Assembly (NCBI RefSeq): GCF_009362845.1
Contig: NZ_WHNW01000014.1
Coordinates: 1 to 52,882 of the forward strand
Length of the DNA stretch: 52,882 nt
Direction of reading: 5' to 3'
Source: Ostreibacterium oceani
Lineage (GTDB): Bacteria; Pseudomonadota; Gammaproteobacteria; Cardiobacteriales; Ostreibacteriaceae
Shown here piece after piece: positions 17,151 through 29,589 of this stretch. Made by a program: the position numbers and the translations under genes. Each line of letters opens with the position of its first letter. Positions within the stretch are counted from its first letter, which is position 1. The notes beneath the pieces were generated by a model, which was not told the origin of the DNA, searched no databases, and saw only the letters and a list, made by a program, of their open reading frames with translations.

Positions 17151-17303
17151 ATGCTTAGTATCGAGGACAAACGAACAGGGACGATTTTAGTTCACTTCGG
17201 GCGGTGCAGCTTGGAGAATAAAACAAATGAAACGTATGTTAATCAATGCCACACAAAAAGAAGAATTACGTGTGGCACTTGTCGATGGGCAGAGGCTTTA
17301 TGA
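17151..17303 (+). CDS. Upstream ORF overlapping the rne start (50 codons)
   Basis: ATG at 17151 is preceded by GAGGAAGATATA, a better ribosome site than that of rne itself (GGAG, 10 nt spacing). The frame runs 50 codons to TGA at 17301, so it overlaps rne by 77 nt in the +1 frame relative to rne. The product begins MLSIEDKRTGTILVHF and resembles nothing I know. It may be a leader peptide that competes with or couples to rne translation. It could equally be chance, because the reading frame is short. Confidence 0.35.
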   Translation: MLSIEDKRTGTILVHFGRCSLENKTNETYVNQCHTKRRITCGTCRWAEAL

Positions 17304-20300
17304 TCTAGATATCGAAACCATCAGTAATAAGCAAAAAAAAGCCAATATTTACAAAGGGCGAATCACCCGAATAGAGCCCAGTTTAGAAGCGGCATTTGTG
17401 GATTACGGCGCAGAGCGACACGGGTTTTTGCCACTAAAAGAAATTGCGAAGACGTATTTTTCTGGTGCGACCAATGTGGGCAATAATGGTAAACCAGACT
17501 ATAAAAAATTAATCAAAGAAGGTCAGCCTGTTATGGTGCAGGTTGATAAAGAAGAGCGTGGAAACAAAGGCGCAGCACTGACCACTTATATCAGTTTGGC
17601 AGGGCGTTATTTAGTGGTGATGCCTAATAATCCACGTGGCGGTGGTGTCTCGCGGCGCATACAAGGCGACGAACGCAAAGAGCTACGCCAAACCATGGAC
17701 AAAGTCAATATTCCAGAGGGCGTTGGTGTGATTATTCGTACCGCTGGCGTTGATCGCAGCGAAGACGAACTAAACTGGGATCTAAACTACCAGATGCAAG
17801 TCTGGAACGCCATTTCTAACGAATATGAAAATGCCGCGGTTGGAACACTGCTTTATAAAGAAAGCAACATTATTGTCCGTGCATTGCGAGACTATTTTCG
17901 TGATGATATCGTGCAAATCATTATCGATAACGAAAATGTGTACCAGCAGGCCAAAGGCTTTATGTCTTTGGTTATGCCAGATAAACTCAAGCGGTTGAGT
18001 TTTTATCAAGATGAATTGCCGCTATTTACCCGTTATCAAATCGAGGCGCAGATTGATTCGGCTTATGGTCGTAATGTCAGGCTACCCTCTGGCGGTGAAC
18101 TCGTTATCGATTATACCGAAGCGATGGTATCCATTGATATTAACTCAGCGCGTGCAACTAAAGGGACTGATGTCGAAGAGACTGCATTCAATACCAACCT
18201 AGAAGCCGCAGAAGAGATAGCGCGCCAACTTCGCTTGCGCGACATTGGTGGTTTGATCGTCATTGACTTTATTGATATGTACGAGGCAAGACACCGCCGC
18301 CAAGTCGAAGATAAAATCAGAGATGCCATTCACATCGACCGTGCACGCGTCCAGCTTGCGCGAATATCCAAGTTTGGTTTGTTAGAAATGTCGCGTCAGC
18401 GCTTACGCCCCTCGATTGACGAGGCGAGCCATATCGTTTGTCCGCGTTGTAAAGGGCAGGGTAGTATTCGTTCGACGCAATCCGTTGCGCTGTCGGTTTT
18501 GCGCTTGATAGAAGAAGACGCAATGAAAGAAAACACACAAAAAATCGTGGTGCAATTGCCCGTTAAAGTGGCAATTTTCTTGTCAAATGAAAAGCGTGCG
18601 GCAATTTCTGCGATAGAAAAAAGCAACAACGTCAGTATTGTGCTGATTGCTAACGAAAGTTTAGATACGCCGAATTTTGATATTCAGCGTTTGCGCCATG
18701 ATGACGAGGCCAGTATTGATGCGGTCAGCTATAAACTCAGCAAAGATTTCCGTATTGATGAAGATGCGTTAGCCCCACAGCAAACCGCACCAGCGGTTGA
18801 AGAGCCAGCCGTGAGCAATATCCAACCAGCTGACCCGCTTCCAAAATCCAAAACAGGATTCTTTAAGCTGATTAAACAAGTATTGGGTATAGGTTCTGCA
18901 ACGGCTCAAGCGACTAAGCGCGATGAACAGGGCGGGCATGGCAATTCTCGGCAAACAACGAAAAAAAACCAGCCAGCTAGCCAACAAACAAGCCAACAAA
19001 CAAGCCGAGGTAAATCGGCCAATGCAGCAACGGCCAGAAAACCAAGGCAATCACAGGATAAGCCTCAGGAAAAAACACAGGGAAACGCGCAAGATAGCGC
19101 AGCAAAAAACGATAATAATACGCGAGGACAAAATACATCGCAGCGCGCTTCGCAGTCAGGTAATTCGCAGCCAGGCAACAATGCGCGGCGCCAAAAAACG
19201 GGACAGTCATCAGATCGACAGCCGTCAGAGGCAAAATCCACAGCGTCATCTCGTCCATTAGACGAACAAACAGAAAGACAAGCGGGGAAGCAAGCCGAAA
19301 ATAAAGCCGAAAATCAAGCCCCTAAACAAAAGCAGGGGCAACCAGAAAGACAGGCAAACCGACCAAGCGCTACCGTTAATCCACATATGAAAGACAAGAG
19401 TCTATTGCATGCGGGCCGACCAGTGAGCGAGGATGCGGTACGTGGCAGCGGCAAGGCAAATTTTGCTGGCGCGACAAACCAAGCGGCAATTTCAACCACT
19501 GAAAAAGCGGCTAGTAAAGACGATGACAAAGGCGATAACAAAGGCAATGACAAAGACGCTAAAACAACAGTTGCCAGCAATACATCAGCCAATGCACCAG
19601 CCAATGCAGCAACCAATGCGGCTTTGGCCAGTGAGCGCGTCTATGTGCCGCGTGCAATTAACGATGCAGTGCCTGCTATGGCAATATCTGACGATATGCC
19701 TGAAGAAGTTGCCGAAGGGGTTGCCGAAGGGGTAACAACATCAGCCACAGCAGCACCAACTGCCGTGCCTAACACGGGCAATCGTATTGCTGATTTATCG
19801 GCGTTTGGACAAAGTATCTGGTTAGATAACATTAACCGCGATATGCTTGAGACAGGCGAATTAACCCAGCTGATTGCAGAGGACGATTTGCGGGGTATCA
19901 CGTCAAACCCAGCTATTTTTGAAAAAGCACTAGCGAGCAATCATCCAGGTTATCTTGAACAGTTAAAGTCGTTAGTTGGCAAGGTTAGCGATCCAAACGA
20001 GGCATTTTTTGCCTTGGCCGTCAAGGATATTCAAACCGCTTGCCATGCATTTAAGGCGACCTATGAGCGTACTGGGGGCAACGACGGGATGGTGAGTTTA
20101 GAAGTCTCGCCGAATTTCGCTTATGATGCAGATAAAACCATCGAGCAAGCGTTGATTTTGCAGCATCAATTAAATGCCCCTAACGCCATGATCAAAGTGC
20201 CTGGTACGCAGCCAGGGTTGGTTGCTATTGAGCAATTAACTTACTTAGGGTTAAACATTAATGTGACGCTGCTGTTTTCTGTCTCGCGTTATGTTGAGGT

Positions 20301-20871
20301 GTTCGAAGCCTATATGCGCGGTTTGCAAAAACGCGCAGAAATGGGGTTGCCAGTGGATAACATCCGTAGCGTTGCGAGCTTTTTTGTTTCTCGTATTGAT
20401 GCGGCGGCAGATACGGTGTTGGAAAAAACCAACCCAGAAATCATGGGTAAAGTGGCGATAGCCAATGCTAAAGTAGCGTATAACGAATATGAGCGCCTTA
20501 TCCAATCAAAAGCCTGGCAACGATTGGCGTTAGTGGGAGCAAAACCCCAGCGTCTATTGTGGGCGAGTACGAGTACAAAAAATCCAGCCTACCCCGAAGT
20601 GTTGTATGTTGATCAATTGATTGGTCCCGATACGGTCAACACGCTGCCACCTAATACCTATGCCGCTTTTAAGGCCAAAGGGAGCATTGCCAACACATTG
20701 ACACAGGGCGTATCTGAGGCGCGTGCATTGATTGAATTATTGCCGCAGTATGGCGTTGATTTAGATTTAATTACGCAAAAACTCGAACGGGATGGCGTGC
20801 AGGCATTTGAGCAATCGTTTGCCGGTTTATTGGCAATCGTGGCCGAAAAAATGGGTAGCGAGAATACCTGA
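17227..20871 (+). CDS. rne: RNase E fused to transaldolase
   Basis: One uninterrupted frame of 1,214 codons. Residues 1-~510 are the RNase E catalytic half: S1 domain after MKRMLINA, catalytic aspartates D304 (VSIDINSA) and about D347 (GGLIVIDFIDM), and zinc-link CPRCKG with C405 and C408. These lie one residue from the E. coli positions. K542-G556 (KTGFFKLIKQVLGIG) looks like the amphipathic membrane anchor. Residues ~560-850 are Gln/Asn/Lys/Ala-rich and disordered. Residues 852-1214 are a complete transaldolase opening NRIADLSAFGQSIWLDN, with SNPAIFEKA, Schiff-base lysine K990 (AMIKVPGT) and STSTKNPAYPEVLYV. The first part processes and decays RNA; the second transfers dihydroxyacetone between pentose-phosphate sugars. 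No internal start with a ribosome site precedes the transaldolase. A joining error in the sequence is the main alternative. Confidence 0.9.
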   Translation: MKRMLINATQKEELRVALVDGQRLYDLDIETISNKQKKANIYKGRITRIEPSLEAAFVDYGAERHGFLPLKEIAKTYFSGATNVGNNGKPDYKKLIKEGQPVMVQVDKEERGNKGAALTTYISLAGRYLVVMPNNPRGGGVSRRIQGDERKELRQTMDKVNIPEGVGVIIRTAGVDRSEDELNWDLNYQMQVWNAISNEYENAAVGTLLYKESNIIVRALRDYFRDDIVQIIIDNENVYQQAKGFMSLVMPDKLKRLSFYQDELPLFTRYQIEAQIDSAYGRNVRLPSGGELVIDYTEAMVSIDINSARATKGTDVEETAFNTNLEAAEEIARQLRLRDIGGLIVIDFIDMYEARHRRQVEDKIRDAIHIDRARVQLARISKFGLLEMSRQRLRPSIDEASHIVCPRCKGQGSIRSTQSVALSVLRLIEEDAMKENTQKIVVQLPVKVAIFLSNEKRAAISAIEKSNNVSIVLIANESLDTPNFDIQRLRHDDEASIDAVSYKLSKDFRIDEDALAPQQTAPAVEEPAVSNIQPADPLPKSKTGFFKLIKQVLGIGSATAQATKRDEQGGHGNSRQTTKKNQPASQQTSQQTSRGKSANAATARKPRQSQDKPQEKTQGNAQDSAAKNDNNTRGQNTSQRASQSGNSQPGNNARRQKTGQSSDRQPSEAKSTASSRPLDEQTERQAGKQAENKAENQAPKQKQGQPERQANRPSATVNPHMKDKSLLHAGRPVSEDAVRGSGKANFAGATNQAAISTTEKAASKDDDKGDNKGNDKDAKTTVASNTSANAPANAATNAALASERVYVPRAINDAVPAMAISDDMPEEVAEGVAEGVTTSATAAPTAVPNTGNRIADLSAFGQSIWLDNINRDMLETGELTQLIAEDDLRGITSNPAIFEKALASNHPGYLEQLKSLVGKVSDPNEAFFALAVKDIQTACHAFKATYERTGGNDGMVSLEVSPNFAYDADKTIEQALILQHQLNAPNAMIKVPGTQPGLVAIEQLTYLGLNINVTLLFSVSRYVEVFEAYMRGLQKRAEMGLPVDNIRSVASFFVSRIDAAADTVLEKTNPEIMGKVAIANAKVAYNEYERLIQSKAWQRLALVGAKPQRLLWASTSTKNPAYPEVLYVDQLIGPDTVNTLPPNTYAAFKAKGSIANTLTQGVSEARALIELLPQYGVDLDLITQKLERDGVQAFEQSFAGLLAIVAEKMGSENT

Positions 20872-22363: not shown

Positions 22364-23071
22364 ATGATAATGAAACAACGAATGGACTCAGACAGCCATA
22401 TTGAAACAGCCGAAGGCATCGAGCTGGCGTTGCCTATTGCAAATCCAGTGCAACGTGCGTTTGCCTTTACCATCGATTTTGTCATCCGACTGCTCATCAT
22501 TTGGCTTGCTAGTCTCGCGTTGCTTTTTACAGGCGCAGGTAAGACACAGACGGGTATTTTGTTGGTATTGCTTTTTTTGATTTGGTGGGGTTACTACATT
22601 ATTTGCGAGCTGCTGATGAACGGACAAAGCCCAGGTAAACGTGCAATGTCGTTACAAGTCGTTTACGAAGACTTTACCCCCATTAGTTTTACGGGGTCAC
22701 TAATTAGAAATTTGCTGAGAACCGCCGATATACTGCCAGGGTTTTATGGCTTTGGTGCGGTGAGTGTGTTGTTTTCTAATAAAAATCAGCGGCTAGGTGA
22801 TTTGGCAGCAAAAACCATCGTCATTAATACCCAGAAAAAATATTTTCGTGATTTGCAGATTCAAGCCAAAGCCTTGCCACCTGAAATGGCTTTTACAGAG
22901 CAAGAGCAACGCGCGATTATCGAGTTTGCTCGCTATTACGAAGCGGGCGCAACCGAACGTGCGCATGAGATTGCTTGGCATTTGCGCACGACATTAAACG
23001 AAGACAACATCGACCAACTAGTGCATAAATTACGGCGCTATGCCAAATGGTTTTTGGGAGATAGACACTGA
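22364..23071 (+). CDS. RDD-family membrane protein
   Basis: 235 residues. An RDD domain with three membrane helices covers about residues 25-150: VQRAFAFTIDFVIRLL, then a helix pair, and NGQSPGKRAMSLQVV before the last. The remaining ~85 residues are soluble and helical. RDD proteins have no settled function. It opens a run of six genes that overlap or nearly touch: its TGA shares bases with the next ATG at 23071. Start is ambiguous between ATGs at 22364, 22370 and 22382. Confidence 0.85.
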   Translation: MIMKQRMDSDSHIETAEGIELALPIANPVQRAFAFTIDFVIRLLIIWLASLALLFTGAGKTQTGILLVLLFLIWWGYYIICELLMNGQSPGKRAMSLQVVYEDFTPISFTGSLIRNLLRTADILPGFYGFGAVSVLFSNKNQRLGDLAAKTIVINTQKKYFRDLQIQAKALPPEMAFTEQEQRAIIEFARYYEAGATERAHEIAWHLRTTLNEDNIDQLVHKLRRYAKWFLGDRH

Positions 23072-24066
23072 TGCGTGAGCAGCATTTTATTATCCAGTAT
23101 GAATCTGAATGGCAGCACATGGCAGACTATTTGGATTATCAACGCTTACCTAGCCGGCAGCAAAAGAAAACCCCCAAGCCAGTTATTGATAGTATTGATT
23201 TTCCAGCGAAATATAGACGACTATGCAATCAGCTTGCTTTGGCAAAAACGCGTAATTTTTCCCAGCACATTATCGAACGCCTGAATCATTTAGTGGCGGA
23301 TGGACATCATGTGTTGCATAAAAAACGGCGTGTTGATTGGGCGCAAGTGTATCGTTTTGTTTTAACTGATTTTCCGTGCGCAGTACGACGCGAAAAACGC
23401 GTGATGCTAGCGGCCTTAGCGGCGTTTGCTGGGCCTGCGATTGTCTTGTTTATGTTGATTAAATTTTTCCCTGAGCTGGCGCTTGATGTGTTAGGGGAAT
23501 ATACCTTGTTAAGTATGGAGGACATGTATAATCCAGACAATCGCGATGATCGCCTAGGGGAGAGTCGCGGTGCAGACAGTGATGTTATGATGTTTGGTGT
23601 TTATGTTTATAACAACATCGGGATTGCGCTGCGTAGTTTTGCCAGCGGAATCGTTTTTGGGGTGTTGCCGATTTTTGTTGCGGTGTTTAATGGTATCTAT
23701 TTGGGTGCCATTTTTGCCCATTTATCGAACCAAGGTTATGCTTATCAAACGCTATACCCTTTTGTGATTACTCATGGGGCATTTGAATTAACCGCCATTG
23801 TCATTGCATGCGGTGCAGGGATTAGGCTGGGGCTGTCTTGGCTGCTACCCGGACGTTTTCGGCGGGCTGAATCATTGGTGATGACGGCACGCTCACTGGT
23901 GCCTATTATTATTGGGTTTAGCGTGATGCTGCTTTTGGCCGCGTTAATCGAGGCATTTTGGTCTGCAATCGTGATGCCGATTGGTATTAAGTATTTTGTC
24001 GGTGGACTGTGTTGGTTATTGGTGCTGTATTACTTTTTTTGGCAAGGTCGGTCACGTGAATTTTAA
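23071..24066 (+). CDS. SpoIIM-like (stage II sporulation protein M / DUF95) membrane protein
   Basis: 331 residues with an N-terminal soluble helical part (residues 1-~105) and about five to six membrane helices. Family features are the NNIGIALRSFASGIVFGV and THGAFELTAIVIACGAGI blocks. In Bacillus SpoIIM belongs to an engulfment complex; in non-spore-formers homologues occur in this MoxR/DUF58 operon with unknown role. Translationally coupled to both neighbours, since it overlaps RDD by one base and the following GTG start by 11 bases. Confidence 0.88.
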   Translation: MREQHFIIQYESEWQHMADYLDYQRLPSRQQKKTPKPVIDSIDFPAKYRRLCNQLALAKTRNFSQHIIERLNHLVADGHHVLHKKRRVDWAQVYRFVLTDFPCAVRREKRVMLAALAAFAGPAIVLFMLIKFFPELALDVLGEYTLLSMEDMYNPDNRDDRLGESRGADSDVMMFGVYVYNNIGIALRSFASGIVFGVLPIFVAVFNGIYLGAIFAHLSNQGYAYQTLYPFVITHGAFELTAIVIACGAGIRLGLSWLLPGRFRRAESLVMTARSLVPIIIGFSVMLLLAALIEAFWSAIVMPIGIKYFVGGLCWLLVLYYFFWQGRSREF

Positions 24067-25639
24067 TCAAATAACCATTGATTTATCTGCGCGTACTGAC
24101 GCTCAGGCAGCTAATTTAGGCTTTGTTGTCGCCCGTCGCTACAAGGGTATCTTGCTGTTGGCTTATGGTCTAGCAATGCTACCTTTTTTGTTATTGAGTT
24201 TATTATTGTTATTAACATTTGAACAAAACTGGGTTGCCTTTATTGCCTTGCTTATACCGTGGTGGTTTAAACCCTACTATGAACGGGTGGTTTTGTTTAA
24301 TGTGAGTCGCTTGATTTTTGGTCAATCGATTGGCGCCATCGAGTTACTCACGAGCTTTACGCAAGCGGCAAAAAATGGATTGTGGCTAAATCTTAGCCTG
24401 TATCGATTGTCGCCTTCGCGCTCGGCGACCATGCCAGTTAAATTGCTAGAAGGGCTTGCTGGACGTGAATATGCCGAACGGGTTAAATTTTTGCGTATTG
24501 GCAGTCCATCTACGGGATTGACTATCGGTTTAGTCCATATCGAGGTCCTGATTTATATCAACTGCTATATTTTGCTGACTTGGTTGTTACCTGATTATTG
24601 GTTATCGAACTTTTTCTCTAATTTTTATTTGGCTGATACGAGTGTCATTGCCAATGTGATCAATTTGTTTTTTTATGCAGTTGCGATGATGACGATTGGT
24701 GTTTTTTATACTTGTGCGGGGTTTATGCTGTATTTAAATCGCCGAATTATGAACGAAGGCTGGTCTATTGAAATGGCATTTAAGCAAATGGCAAAACGAT
24801 TTCAGTCTATTGGTCAGATGACTTTTATGTGGGGAGTGCTGGTTGTCAGTAGTATTCTCGGCGGTGTTTCTGCGGGCGGTTATGCGCTGGCTTCGGATGG
24901 CAGCCGCAATGATAATTTTGGTCAATCATCAGGAGAAGCTTCACAAACGGACGATTTTTTTGCCGAAGACAAAGCCTTGTTGTCTGATATTATCTTGGAT
25001 GAATCCGTCAACCCATTCGAAGTTAAAGGCAAATGGGTCGCTAATGAAAAAGTCACCGATGCATCTTTAAATCGTGATAAGGACGGTTTTGCGTTTGAAC
25101 ACCTAGAGGGATTTGCCGCGCTACTACGATTTTTATTAATTGTCGCAAGCATTGGTGGGATTATTTGGTTGATTTTGCGTTATAAATTACAACTAATGAA
25201 TTTATTGGGTAAAAAACCTGTGTTGGATAATTATGAGGCACCAACGACGCTGTTTGGGCTGAATGTGAGTAAAGCAACGTTGCCTGATGATATTACCAGT
25301 GAGGCCAATCAACTGCTTTGCGATGGGGATATAGTCGGCGCTTTATCGTTATTGTATCGGGGTAGTCTCGTCAGTTTGATGTTTGATTATGGGATGGTAA
25401 TCAAAGAAAGCCATACCGAAGGTGATTGCTTGGCAATGGCAAAAAAACACTTGTCAACGCAGGTGTTTGGCTATTTTTCTCAGCTGACACAGACGTGGCA
25501 AAATCTCGTTTATGCGCATCAACTGCCGCAAAACGAATTGATCAACCAGCTCATTACGCAGTGGCATGTTAATTTTACCAACCACCGAGATCAAGCAATG
25601 CCGCCATCTGATGAGCTGCTGCACGGCAGGGGAAGCTGA
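24056..25639 (+). CDS. Membrane protein with C-terminal DUF4129 domain
   Basis: I choose the GTG at 24056 (ribosome site AAGGTCG), which overlaps the previous stop; it gives a 527-residue protein. The upstream in-frame extension only translates the end of the SpoIIM gene. There are about five membrane helices in the first 300 residues and one near 365, then a soluble DUF4129 domain (about 440-520, containing GDIVGALSLLYRGSLV). DUF4129 is often found with transglutaminase-like and MoxR/DUF58 genes; its function is not known. The stop overlaps the next ATG as TGATG. Confidence 0.85.
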   Translation: MNFNQITIDLSARTDAQAANLGFVVARRYKGILLLAYGLAMLPFLLLSLLLLLTFEQNWVAFIALLIPWWFKPYYERVVLFNVSRLIFGQSIGAIELLTSFTQAAKNGLWLNLSLYRLSPSRSATMPVKLLEGLAGREYAERVKFLRIGSPSTGLTIGLVHIEVLIYINCYILLTWLLPDYWLSNFFSNFYLADTSVIANVINLFFYAVAMMTIGVFYTCAGFMLYLNRRIMNEGWSIEMAFKQMAKRFQSIGQMTFMWGVLVVSSILGGVSAGGYALASDGSRNDNFGQSSGEASQTDDFFAEDKALLSDIILDESVNPFEVKGKWVANEKVTDASLNRDKDGFAFEHLEGFAALLRFLLIVASIGGIIWLILRYKLQLMNLLGKKPVLDNYEAPTTLFGLNVSKATLPDDITSEANQLLCDGDIVGALSLLYRGSLVSLMFDYGMVIKESHTEGDCLAMAKKHLSTQVFGYFSQLTQTWQNLVYAHQLPQNELINQLITQWHVNFTNHRDQAMPPSDELLHGRGS

Positions 25640-27153
25640 TGCTCACACGCAAAGAATGGGTCTTAACAGGTATTACACTGGGTATTATTGGGTTGTTTGC
25701 TGTGTTCTATTTAGCAACACACACCTATATCCAAGTTAACGAATGGACGGGGCTGAAAGGCGACGCCAAAGACGATGAGTTTTACATCGCTGAGCAGTAT
25801 TTGAACCGCAAAGGGTTAGCCGTGATACGGCAAAAAACAGTAGAGTCGCTAACACCTGAAAAGCTCAGTACCATTGATACGGTACTGATTACACATAGCC
25901 ATAAGGCACTCGATAATCATGACCAGTCCGTACTCGTTGATTGGCTTAATGCAGGCGGCCAATTGGTAGTGATGGGTGCAGCAAACTACCGAATCAACGC
26001 ATCAGCAGAACAAAGCAGCGAAGAGGATAATGACGATGTGAACAACGGTGATAATGCCTTTTCGTTGGCAGCTAATCCTGAGGACTTTACGGCGCTCAGC
26101 GAGAATCAGTATCGCAATCGTCAGTCGTTATTTACCCGCTTGGGGCTTGCTGTTTATTACCAGCATGAATACCGTACAGACGTGCCGAAAGATACCCCAA
26201 TATTAGATGCCCCCGCATCGGATACGACCGCATCGGATATGGCTGCATCGCTTTGCCAATCAATTTCGAGTCGTGATTATGATGCTAATCCGTTTTCTGG
26301 CTGGGGCGGTATGGCGAATACAGCCGACACGACGGATACGTATTTGCAATCTGACGAAACGCAGTTAGACGGATTATTATTTAAAAAGCGCTATGCTGGA
26401 GATTGGTATCCCTGTACTGACGTGACAATTGCGGGTAAGCGGTTCGCGGTAGCAGAGGACGAAGGCTGGAAAGCCGAGATACTGGCAGGGTCTTCTCTGC
26501 GAAAAATAGCCGCATTTCCTGCCAAAAACACAGGTTATTTGCTTTCACACTTTACCTATGGGCAGGGGCATGTTGTTGTCTACCACTTAGACAGCGACGC
26601 TTTTTCCAACGATACCGCTTATTACTCGCAGAGTATTTTTGAATTACACCATGCGCCGTTTTTGCATACGCTAGTTAATTATCCCCAATCGGTGGATGCC
26701 GTTTTATGGTTAACAGAAACCCCAATACCTGGCCCCAATCCGTTATTAGTTAAATCAGTTGATATTGGATTTTGGGTAATCATTGCCGCCTTCTGGTTGT
26801 TGTTGGCGTGGTTGTGGAAAAACAGTGTGCGCTTGGGTTCGCTAAAAACTGAGAGTAAACCGAGCAGAATGTCTTTAGAAGCCCATCTACGTAGTAGCGG
26901 TGATTTTTATTATCGTAATGAGGGTAAGAGTGCTTTATTATCATACTGTTATACACGATTGCATCAACGTATCGCACAAGTAATACCGAATGCAAAGGCC
27001 CTTGACCATGCGCAGCTGACAATGATTTTGCACGAAAAGACCACACTCCCTCGCGATAAAATCGCGCACGTATTAAAACGACAATATGCACAAACGGATG
27101 CTGAGTTTGTGGAATTAATTCATTTTATTGATTTACTTAGGAAACGACTATGA
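25639..27153 (+). CDS. DUF4350-domain membrane-anchored protein
   Basis: 504 residues: a single N-terminal membrane helix (about 10-30), a periplasmic or extracytoplasmic DUF4350 region with a Rossmann-like core (TVLITHSHKALDN, LNAGGQLVVMG), a second membrane helix around 375-395, and a soluble tail. An Asp/Ser/Thr/Ala repeat (ASDTTASDMAAS) interrupts the middle. Function unknown, fixed operon partner of MoxR and DUF58. It overlaps the next gene by four bases (ATGAG). Confidence 0.82.
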   Translation: MLTRKEWVLTGITLGIIGLFAVFYLATHTYIQVNEWTGLKGDAKDDEFYIAEQYLNRKGLAVIRQKTVESLTPEKLSTIDTVLITHSHKALDNHDQSVLVDWLNAGGQLVVMGAANYRINASAEQSSEEDNDDVNNGDNAFSLAANPEDFTALSENQYRNRQSLFTRLGLAVYYQHEYRTDVPKDTPILDAPASDTTASDMAASLCQSISSRDYDANPFSGWGGMANTADTTDTYLQSDETQLDGLLFKKRYAGDWYPCTDVTIAGKRFAVAEDEGWKAEILAGSSLRKIAAFPAKNTGYLLSHFTYGQGHVVVYHLDSDAFSNDTAYYSQSIFELHHAPFLHTLVNYPQSVDAVLWLTETPIPGPNPLLVKSVDIGFWVIIAAFWLLLAWLWKNSVRLGSLKTESKPSRMSLEAHLRSSGDFYYRNEGKSALLSYCYTRLHQRIAQVIPNAKALDHAQLTMILHEKTTLPRDKIAHVLKRQYAQTDAEFVELIHFIDLLRKRL

Positions 27154-28226
27154 GACCAGAAACGCCTGAAAATACCCCTGAAAATATCGCCGAAAACACG
27201 CCTGAGAATACTACCGAAAACGCCATCTCTCACGCGGATTCATCGACGGCGCCAACTGCACAAACCAACGTGTTTGGTGCGATAGAGCAAAAACTCCAAG
27301 CAATGCATCGCGAAATTAATAAGGCCGTTATCGGACAGCGTGAGCCTGTCGAGTTGATTTTAATCAGTTTGATTGCTGGCGGGCATGTGTTGTTAGAGGG
27401 CGTACCAGGGCTTGGCAAAACACTGATTGTCAAAGCCATTGCTAAAACGTTTGGGGGGGATTTTTCGCGCATTCAATTTACGCCTGACTTAATGCCCGCC
27501 GATGTCACAGGGCATATGTTATTTAATCCGAAAGAAGGCGAATTTAGTTTGCGCAGAGGCCCTGTGTTTACTAATCTCTTACTGGCCGATGAAATTAACC
27601 GCGCCCCAGCCAAAACCCAAGCGGCACTACTTGAGGTCATGCAAGAAAAGCAAGTCACGATCGAAGGTGAATCGCTACCCGTGACACGCCCATTTATGGT
27701 GTTAGCAACGCAAAACCCGTTGGAGCAAGAAGGCACCTACCCATTACCAGAAGCGCAATTGGATCGATTTTTGATGAAAATCAATTTAACACACTTATCC
27801 GCCGCCGAAGAACAACAGTTAATGGGGTATATGTTGTCACTTAAACAAGTCATGGATATTTACACCGATGAATTGACACAAGTAATTAACGCCGAACAGC
27901 TCATCAAAATACAGCAAGCGACCCATAAAATCACCGTTGATGAGCGAGTGATTCAATATGCGTTAGATATCGTTAGAAAAACCCGCGACTTTCATGGGGT
28001 TGCTGTTGGTGCTGGGCCGCGTGGTGGTATTGCCTTATTAGCCTGCGCGCGTGCCAAGGCATTGATAAATGGTCGCAGTCATGTGATTCCAGATGATGTG
28101 AAATCGTTGGCATTACCAGTATTGCGCCATCGTATTGCATTGACTGCTGACGTCGAAATCGAAGGGTTAACCCCAGACGATATATTAAAACAGTTAATGA
28201 GTGGTGTTGATGCGCCACGCCAATAA
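27150..28226 (+). CDS. MoxR-family AAA+ ATPase
   Basis: 358 residues. Walker A is GVPGLGKT (residues 84-91), Walker B LLLADEINRAP, sensor ATQNPLEQEGTYPLPEAQ with an Arg finger following, and a C-terminal lid domain. MoxR ATPases act as chaperones that insert metals or assemble complexes; partners normally carry DUF58 or VWA domains, as the next gene does. The first ~25 residues are five imperfect ENTPEN-like units encoded by a 12-bp DNA repeat; this segment is disordered and not part of the family. Confidence 0.95.
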   Translation: MRPETPENTPENIAENTPENTTENAISHADSSTAPTAQTNVFGAIEQKLQAMHREINKAVIGQREPVELILISLIAGGHVLLEGVPGLGKTLIVKAIAKTFGGDFSRIQFTPDLMPADVTGHMLFNPKEGEFSLRRGPVFTNLLLADEINRAPAKTQAALLEVMQEKQVTIEGESLPVTRPFMVLATQNPLEQEGTYPLPEAQLDRFLMKINLTHLSAAEEQQLMGYMLSLKQVMDIYTDELTQVINAEQLIKIQQATHKITVDERVIQYALDIVRKTRDFHGVAVGAGPRGGIALLACARAKALINGRSHVIPDDVKSLALPVLRHRIALTADVEIEGLTPDDILKQLMSGVDAPRQ

Positions 28227-28248
28227 ATAACTGCAACGAATAGGCATA

Positions 28249-29589
28249 ATGATGCGGCTAATCCCGAGCAAAAAGCAACTCATCCTACTTGGTGCGGTTA
28301 TCGCGGCAACGACGATGTTATCGATATTGCGCTTATATTACCCCGTATTTGGCTGGGGGATTTTGCTATTACTGGTCATGACGGGTGTGTTATTGGTTTA
28401 TGACGCCAGCGCATTGTACAGACGAATCCAACCGATTCAGATACTTGCCAGCAGGAAAATGCCGCGCCATGTTGCGGTTGGTATTCCTACGCCCGTGCAC
28501 TTGATACTAAAAAATTTGACTGATGCGCCAATTGATTTGTTGGTGTTTGACCATTTGCCCGAAACATTTGGTATCGCTTGCGAAAGTAAGGTCATGCCAT
28601 TTGCTGTTCAAATCGCCGCCAACAGCTATGCAGACTACCGCTACGAAGTCATTGCTAATCAACGCGGACCAGCCCTTTTTAGCCAAACACAATGTCGGAT
28701 GCACTCACCTTGGGCGCTTTGGTCTGTTGACTTTTCAGTCGACAATGAAACCGCCGTCAAGACCTACCCAGATTTTAGAAAAATTGATCAAAATGACATT
28801 TTGTCAGAAAATGAAAACAGCACAGGGCAATTAACCAAACAACGCAAACGGGGAACAGGGACTGAGTTTTCTCAATTACGCGAATACCGCATGGACGACT
28901 CGCTAAAACAAATTGACTACAAAGCGACCGCACGACTGAATAAGCTAATATCCAAAGAATATGAAATAGAGCGAGACCAACAAGTACTCATTTTGTTGGA
29001 TTGCTCTAGGCGATTGCGCGCCGGGCAAGGTCGATTATCGCATTTTGACCATGCACTGAATGCGACTATCTTTTTAGCGCGTACTATATTAAAGCAGGGC
29101 GATGCCGTTGGTTTAATGAGTTTTAGCGGTGATGTTGAGCGTTATGTCAAGCCACGTAAAGGCCGCAATAGCGTCAATCAATTACTCAATCAAGTCTACG
29201 ATTTAGACAGTTCGCGCTATGCCCCTGACTACGTCAAGGCGGCCGAAAATGTGCTGTTACGGCAAAAACGTCGGAGCTTGGTCATTGTCGTGACCAGTCT
29301 CAATGATGAAGATATCGATGCCGTTAAAATGATGATAAAAACATTGCAAAAACGCCATATTGTGTTGATTGCCAATATCAAAGAGCCGTTACTGGATGCC
29401 GATTTGCGCGTTAATAATTTAGACGAGGCAGTTTTTTTTGCTGCACGCGAGACCTACCAGCATTACCGTCAGCAGATGTTTGCTAAAATAAAAAACAACC
29501 GATTAATTTTACTAGACACTTACCCAGATGCTTTGAACGCAAAATTAATTAATCTCTATTTAAATATTAAGCAATCGGGTATTTTTTAA
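28249..29589 (+). CDS. DUF58-domain protein (VWA-like MoxR partner)
   Basis: 446 residues with two N-terminal membrane helices (about 12-50), then an extracytoplasmic beta region, then the DUF58 core RGTGTEFSQLREYRMDD. It is followed by a VWA-like fold with a degenerate MIDAS-type stretch (VLILLDCSRRL). Usually partners with MoxR ATPases. It starts 22 bp after moxR; ATG 28252 is an equally good start. Confidence 0.88.
   Translation: MMRLIPSKKQLILLGAVIAATTMLSILRLYYPVFGWGILLLLVMTGVLLVYDASALYRRIQPIQILASRKMPRHVAVGIPTPVHLILKNLTDAPIDLLVFDHLPETFGIACESKVMPFAVQIAANSYADYRYEVIANQRGPALFSQTQCRMHSPWALWSVDFSVDNETAVKTYPDFRKIDQNDILSENENSTGQLTKQRKRGTGTEFSQLREYRMDDSLKQIDYKATARLNKLISKEYEIERDQQVLILLDCSRRLRAGQGRLSHFDHALNATIFLARTILKQGDAVGLMSFSGDVERYVKPRKGRNSVNQLLNQVYDLDSSRYAPDYVKAAENVLLRQKRRSLVIVVTSLNDEDIDAVKMMIKTLQKRHIVLIANIKEPLLDADLRVNNLDEAVFFAARETYQHYRQQMFAKIKNNRLILLDTYPDALNAKLINLYLNIKQSGIF

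Follow-up and report, generated by a model that had tools for sequence, protein, structure and literature searches.

Organization of the Locus

The window, the 52,882-nucleotide stretch of Ostreibacterium oceani DNA (contig NZ_WHNW01000014.1) analyzed here, carries on its forward strand a single open reading frame of 1214 codons without internal stop, in which RNase E and transaldolase (TAL) are parts of one protein (Table 1). In this protein, Pfam identifies the S1, RNase_E_G (E = 9e-99), and RNase_E_G_Thio domains, followed by TAL_FSA (residues 864–1203, E = 3e-74), and NCBIfam recognizes a Rne/Rng family ribonuclease and a mycobacterial-type transaldolase at the two ends of the frame. The initial annotation had claimed a catalytic half of RNase E with both aspartates and the zinc-link, a membrane-anchor segment with a disordered linker, and a complete transaldolase with its Schiff-base lysine; residue checks, domain and motif matches, and structure prediction bear out all of these, the anchor as a candidate helix.

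Table 1. Features of the rne-tal fusion gene in the window (residue numbers refer to the fused protein).
Feature	Position	Strand	Evidence
rne-tal fusion gene, 1214 aa	17227..20871	+	ORF, Pfam, NCBIfam
S1 RNA-binding domain of RNase E, aa 35–119	17329..17583	+	Pfam PF00575
RNase E/G catalytic domain, aa 123–392	17593..18402	+	Pfam PF10150; alignment with 2vmk
RNase E Asp pair, D304 and D347	18136–18138; 18265–18267	+	residue check
RNase E zinc-link CPRC (C405, C408) and thioredoxin-like domain, aa 404–488	18436..18690	+	Pfam PF20833
Disordered linker, aa 500–850	18724..19776	+	AlphaFold pLDDT mostly <50
Candidate membrane-targeting amphipathic helix, aa 543–557, TGFFKLIKQVLGIGS	18853..18897	+	top hydrophobic moment in linker
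Conserved linker island LLHAGRPVSEDAVRGSGKANF, aa 726–746	19402..19464	+	column conservation, 11 fusions
Transaldolase domain, complete, aa 851–1214	19777..20868	+	Pfam, NCBIfam, motifs, predicted fold
TAL Schiff-base K990	20194–20196	+	residue check

An isocitrate dehydrogenase gene lies upstream in divergent orientation, and a gene for an outer-membrane efflux protein lies downstream. Farther along the window (22364–29589), genes for RDD, SpoIIM-like, DUF4350-like, MoxR-type AAA, and DUF58/VWA proteins follow each other consecutively and form a MoxR-type cluster. Neither the 5′ region nor the fusion gene has a match in Rfam, thus no known rne leader family is recognized at the 5′ region, and a scan of the fusion gene for internal promoters scored no better than shuffled sequences.

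RNase E Half and Linker

The catalytic half of RNase E aligns end to end with the E. coli enzyme (2vmk, phmmer E = 4e-204), and the protein scores above the cut-off of TIGR00757. It falls below the cut-off of PRK10811, the equivalog of full-length E. coli-type ribonuclease E (841 bits vs. 908), where residues 1–766 match positions 1–754 of the 1068 in the model and the missing part is the E. coli-type scaffold. The second RNase E/G gene of the genome (two in total) encodes a 517-residue RNase G-like frame. The site of the candidate amphipathic helix ranks first at the equivalent place in nine of the ten other complete fusions and second in the remaining one (G013), and the hydrophobic moment predicts a helix at the equivalent place in unfused RNase E as well.

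The linker comprises ~350 residues in the window protein and 303–440 residues in other species. In an AlphaFold2 model of residues 501–1214, calculated with a 37-row alignment, its pLDDT is mostly below 50. Several islands are nevertheless conserved, namely a PAV...P..P(L)P stretch ahead of the amphipathic helix, the helix itself, the segment GRPxxxxAVRGxGKA, and, in the family designated f3 (see below), APG(M/L)V. In the island at residues 726–746, the 15 best columns have a mean conservation of 0.88 (11 fusions compared). The GRPR half of this island is also found in unfused relatives, whereas AVRG.GKA is limited to the fused proteins (those of the window and f3, compared with the unfused tails examined). 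Since the PAV...P..P(L)P stretch and the helix are likewise present in unfused relatives, TAL seems to have been appended to an RNase E scaffold that was already almost complete. The motif APGL(V/I), present twice in the linkers of two f3 proteins (L035 and L036), once in the other f3 proteins, and absent in the window protein, is possibly a binding motif. The likeness of GRP..AVRG.GKA to the Pseudomonas NDPR motif that binds PNPase (PMC11964227) was considered and found too weak, and the Pfam PNPase-binding domain has no match in the linker of the window protein.

Transaldolase Half

The TAL domain belongs to the mycobacterial/Neisseria type of ~360 residues (TIGR00876/PRK03343), not to the E. 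coli TalB type, and in the window protein it exceeds the cut-off of the TIGR00876 equivalog (294.6 bits vs. 233.75). The motifs with the catalytic Asp, Asn, Glu, Lys, Ser, and Arg are intact in all 11 complete fused proteins. The best match among solved structures is the transaldolase of Neisseria gonorrhoeae (3clm and its variants, E about 1e-86, 42% identity); the predicted domain, with pLDDT mostly above 90, has the transaldolase barrel fold and superimposes on the gonococcal enzyme with a TM-score of 0.97 and an rmsd of 1.2 Å (Foldseek). The catalytic motifs are the same in both (3clm, 7bbx), but the gonococcal enzyme is free, and its NOS switch, formed by Lys8 and Cys38 (numbers taken from the titles of the PDB variants K8A and C38S), has no counterpart in any of the 11 fused TALs, which carry S/P/A/M/E/T and R at these positions. 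A NOS redox switch acting as a sensor is thus ruled out.

Mycobacterial-type TAL is also joined to a second enzyme in the TAL/phosphoglucose isomerase (PGI) fusions described by PRK09533 and in TAL-transketolase fusions, although there TAL is N-terminal and its partner is an enzyme of carbon metabolism, whereas here TAL is C-terminal and its partner is RNase E. With PRK09533 the window protein reaches 441 of the 712 bits required, through its TAL part alone, and the C-terminal phosphoglucose isomerase domain is absent. Several f3 fusions (L034–L036, L038, L039, L046) extend beyond TAL by up to about 127 residues, which form an acidic tail rich in Glu and Ala; the window protein has no such tail.

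Distribution among Cardiobacteriales

Among 32 Cardiobacteriales genomes searched, that of the window is the sole member of its own family. In family f3, which includes a Cardiobacteriaceae MAG (L075) and Rappaport israeli (L076), TAL lies in the frame of RNase E or is consistent with it in all 12 genomes; ten of these fusions are complete, while those of G021 and G025 are truncated, the former by the end of its contig and the latter by a gap of Ns. Counted from the usual start, the complete f3 proteins span 1231–1343 residues, with the exception of R. israeli, whose frame is interrupted around codon 37, in a run of A (L076, about 2200–2300). The transketolase of R. israeli is also split in two frames (G017:C8), and these breaks are probably errors of draft sequencing.

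In family f2 (18 genomes, including an Ignatzschineria, L139), a separate tal is present in 15 genomes, with rne located away from it in the genomes checked, and the single f4 genome also has a separate tal. The remaining three f2 genomes (G018, G029, G030) contain no transaldolase match whatsoever, so that transaldolase seems dispensable in Cardiobacteriales.

The search for RNase E homologs with C-terminal TAL domains, proposed in the initial annotation, therefore finds them throughout f3; no further fusion was detected in a non-exhaustive sampling of 369 genomes of Gammaproteobacteria and 398 of Pseudomonadota, and no relative was found in viral contigs. A subset of the long TAL frames in these samples was inspected, and all proved to be fusions of TAL with PGI or transketolase, or else open frames that were simply long; a gammaproteobacterium (L067), for example, encodes transaldolase-transketolase as a single protein in a 1017-residue frame. 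The genes flanking the fusion differ between the window and f3, where kdsB-like and uvrC-like genes (recognized by eye, without family search) lie 3′ of it; the fusion is thus intact despite reshuffled surroundings.

Origin of the Fusion and Loss of the tal Start

The 12 fused rows of the TAL tree group together in a single clade (99/95), although the row of the window is a long branch and calls for caution, and in the tree of the RNase E core 11 fused rows lie on the same side of a branch (88/99). From the two trees, and from the AVRG.GKA motif common to the window and f3, the fusion is judged to have arisen once; it is old.

In the unfused tal genes of the order, the initiator Met is found exactly 10 residues ahead of GQS[IV]W in 16 of 16 cases, with a Shine-Dalgarno-like match in 14. 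This ancestral Met has been lost in all 11 complete fused genes, in which position −10 is occupied by G, T, I, Q, N, T, T, N, E, V, and K, with one extra residue there in G009 (A at −11). Separate translation of TAL from the old start is consequently ruled out by the sequence, and the loss makes the fusion hard to undo; no reversion to separate genes is found in the 13 fused genomes. Nor do ten of the 11 complete genes have an ATG close by that follows a good Shine-Dalgarno sequence. Four of them (G002, G005, G007, G011) have no ATG within 70 codons upstream of TAL, and those of the window (residues 818 and 824) are not preceded by a Shine-Dalgarno sequence. The exception is R. israeli, in which an ATG 14 codons ahead of GQS, just before position 5031 of L076, follows AAGGAG with a spacing of 6; it may be a newly evolved internal tal start specific to this species. 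New internal starts appear unlikely in the other fused genes.

Selection and Second Transaldolase Genes

The dN/dS ratios of TAL, calculated by the Nei-Gojobori method, are 0.101 (G013/G015), 0.043 (G009/G021), 0.027 (G019/G023), and 0.038 (G002/G007, a nearly saturated pair), further pairs being saturated at synonymous sites. The corresponding values are 0.033 and 0.019 for the RNase E core and 0.19–0.31 for the linker (in species other than that of the window). For the segment between the GKA island and the join, ratios of 0.35 (bootstrap 0.18–0.57) and 0.23 (0.09–0.49) were obtained; since both intervals are below 1 across the join, this segment evolves as a coding sequence.

Whereas the fused TAL is the only one found in eight of the 13 fused genomes, a separate tal is also present in the other five (G007, G011, G013, G015, G025), of the talAB type in the three that were tested (G015, G007, G011). 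The active site of the fused TAL is intact in the four of these genomes in which it is readable. As judged from these ratios and motifs, the fused TAL is under purifying selection, also beside a second tal, and the higher ratio of the G013/G015 pair hints at some relaxation with the active site still intact.

The initial annotation had also called for a check for a second tal gene in the window genome (2.18 Mb, estimated to be 100% complete), and none is found, the fusion being the single TAL_FSA match. Transketolase is present in this genome and glucose-6-phosphate dehydrogenase gave no match, so that pentose and erythrose phosphates are probably made there through the non-oxidative branch.

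Discussion

The RNase E–TAL protein is real, conserved, and apparently undescribed. Searches of the open literature for RNase E or the degradosome together with transaldolase, and for Dichelobacter and Cardiobacter, returned no description of such a fusion, in agreement with the initial annotation; subscription papers and protein-database annotations were outside their scope. The evolution of RNase E in Gammaproteobacteria has been surveyed chiefly in PMC4435900, the main text of which mentions neither Cardiobacteriales nor transaldolase; the same is true of PMC11964227 and PMC3071783.

The structure of the gene and its parts is most probably explained by a single bifunctional polypeptide of about 130 kDa, in which TAL is tethered to the membrane-bound RNase E and its degradosome. 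The N-terminal half would be an ordinary RNase E that forms tetramers on the inner membrane, cleaving RNA and attaching to the membrane like its counterparts in other Gammaproteobacteria. At the C-terminal end, beyond the disordered scaffold region, a folded and catalytically complete TAL would be held on a flexible tether of ~350 residues, so that each tetramer would carry four transaldolases. The full-length protein would accumulate with both halves active, and TAL, held near the membrane-bound degradosome, would supply the cell's transaldolase activity for the non-oxidative pentose phosphate pathway. Several points count against such a tethered enzyme. A disordered linker of this length might undergo proteolysis in vivo, and a separate TAL might be made in R. 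israeli from the internal ATG. In addition, RNase E is generally a protein of low abundance, an odd carrier for a housekeeping metabolic enzyme.

In effect, TAL would be a covalent member of the degradosome, whereas the enolase or aconitase of other bacteria is held there through non-covalent contacts. The E. coli degradosome (RhlB, enolase, PNPase) likewise has a membrane-targeting helix, predicted in the fusion, and a disordered C-terminal scaffold, and it also attaches an enzyme of central carbon metabolism through the C-terminal region of RNase E; in the fusion, however, transaldolase takes this place and forms a covalent part of RNase E, the enolase gene being separate in all 12 genomes checked. 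In Caulobacter, aconitase is bound to the RNA-decay endonuclease, and in the degradosome-like network of B. subtilis enolase and phosphofructokinase are recruited, in both cases non-covalently.

A tethered bifunctional protein is also compatible with a fusion that is neutral and locked in, in which each enzyme acts on its own and joining them serves no regulation; the difference concerns the importance of the tether. The alternative offered in the initial annotation, that a stop codon was lost and the resulting fusion is neutral, is disfavored in its simple, recent form by the age, single origin, and purifying selection of the fused gene and by the lack of reversion in 13 genomes, whereas its non-adaptive form, a lock-in, has a chance that we place slightly below even. 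With the tal start lost in all 11 complete genes, the essential rne and a needed tal are not easily separated; catalysis alone would retain TAL in the eight genomes where it is the sole one; the linker is poorly conserved; and the absence of the gonococcal redox-switch residues leaves no obvious sensor. Such a lock-in accounts less well for the retained linker islands, for the absence of any reversion, and for the genomes with a tal of their own, in which the active site of the fused TAL has been kept wherever readable and dN/dS is 0.10 in the G013/G015 pair.

That active site, poorly explained by the need for transaldolase, leaves room for a role in the degradosome, although a second enzyme with other specificity or expression would explain it as well. 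It is one of the arguments, along with long-term conservation and the recurrence of metabolic enzymes on degradosomes (PMC4435900), for functional coupling, in which TAL senses sugar phosphates, or is localized, and thereby modulates RNA decay or flux. Such coupling seems rather unlikely in view of the length and disorder of the linker and of the absence of predicted contacts between RNase E and TAL; a fusion to an essential gene would be retained even without coupling. It is likewise doubtful, and a more speculative proposal, that the state of TAL or the level of its substrates (sedoheptulose-7-P, fructose-6-P) directly tunes RNase E, coupling the supply of pentose and erythrose-4-phosphate to RNA turnover. 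Carbon-flux sensing and substrate channeling, put forward in the initial annotation, are hypothetical roles of the fused protein.

We consider it improbable that the one frame yields two products, with TAL released as a free enzyme by processing of the linker or made from an internal start. The long disordered linker and the plausible start in R. israeli would permit this, but the ancestral start is lost in all 11 genes, four of the 11 lack any ATG within 70 codons of TAL, and the upstream ATGs elsewhere, including both in the window, have no good Shine-Dalgarno sequence. Finally, an assembly or annotation artefact, conceivable when the fusion had been met in one window only, is ruled out together with chance by ten other separately assembled genomes, single-contig ones among them, which have the same architecture with no stop and start between the two parts.

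It has long been asked why metabolic enzymes associate with the machinery of RNA decay, and contacts that are weak and easily separated have made the matter difficult to test. In the RNase E–TAL protein of these Cardiobacteriales the link is covalent and has been kept across a family that includes cultured bacteria, so that the importance of a physical link is directly testable.
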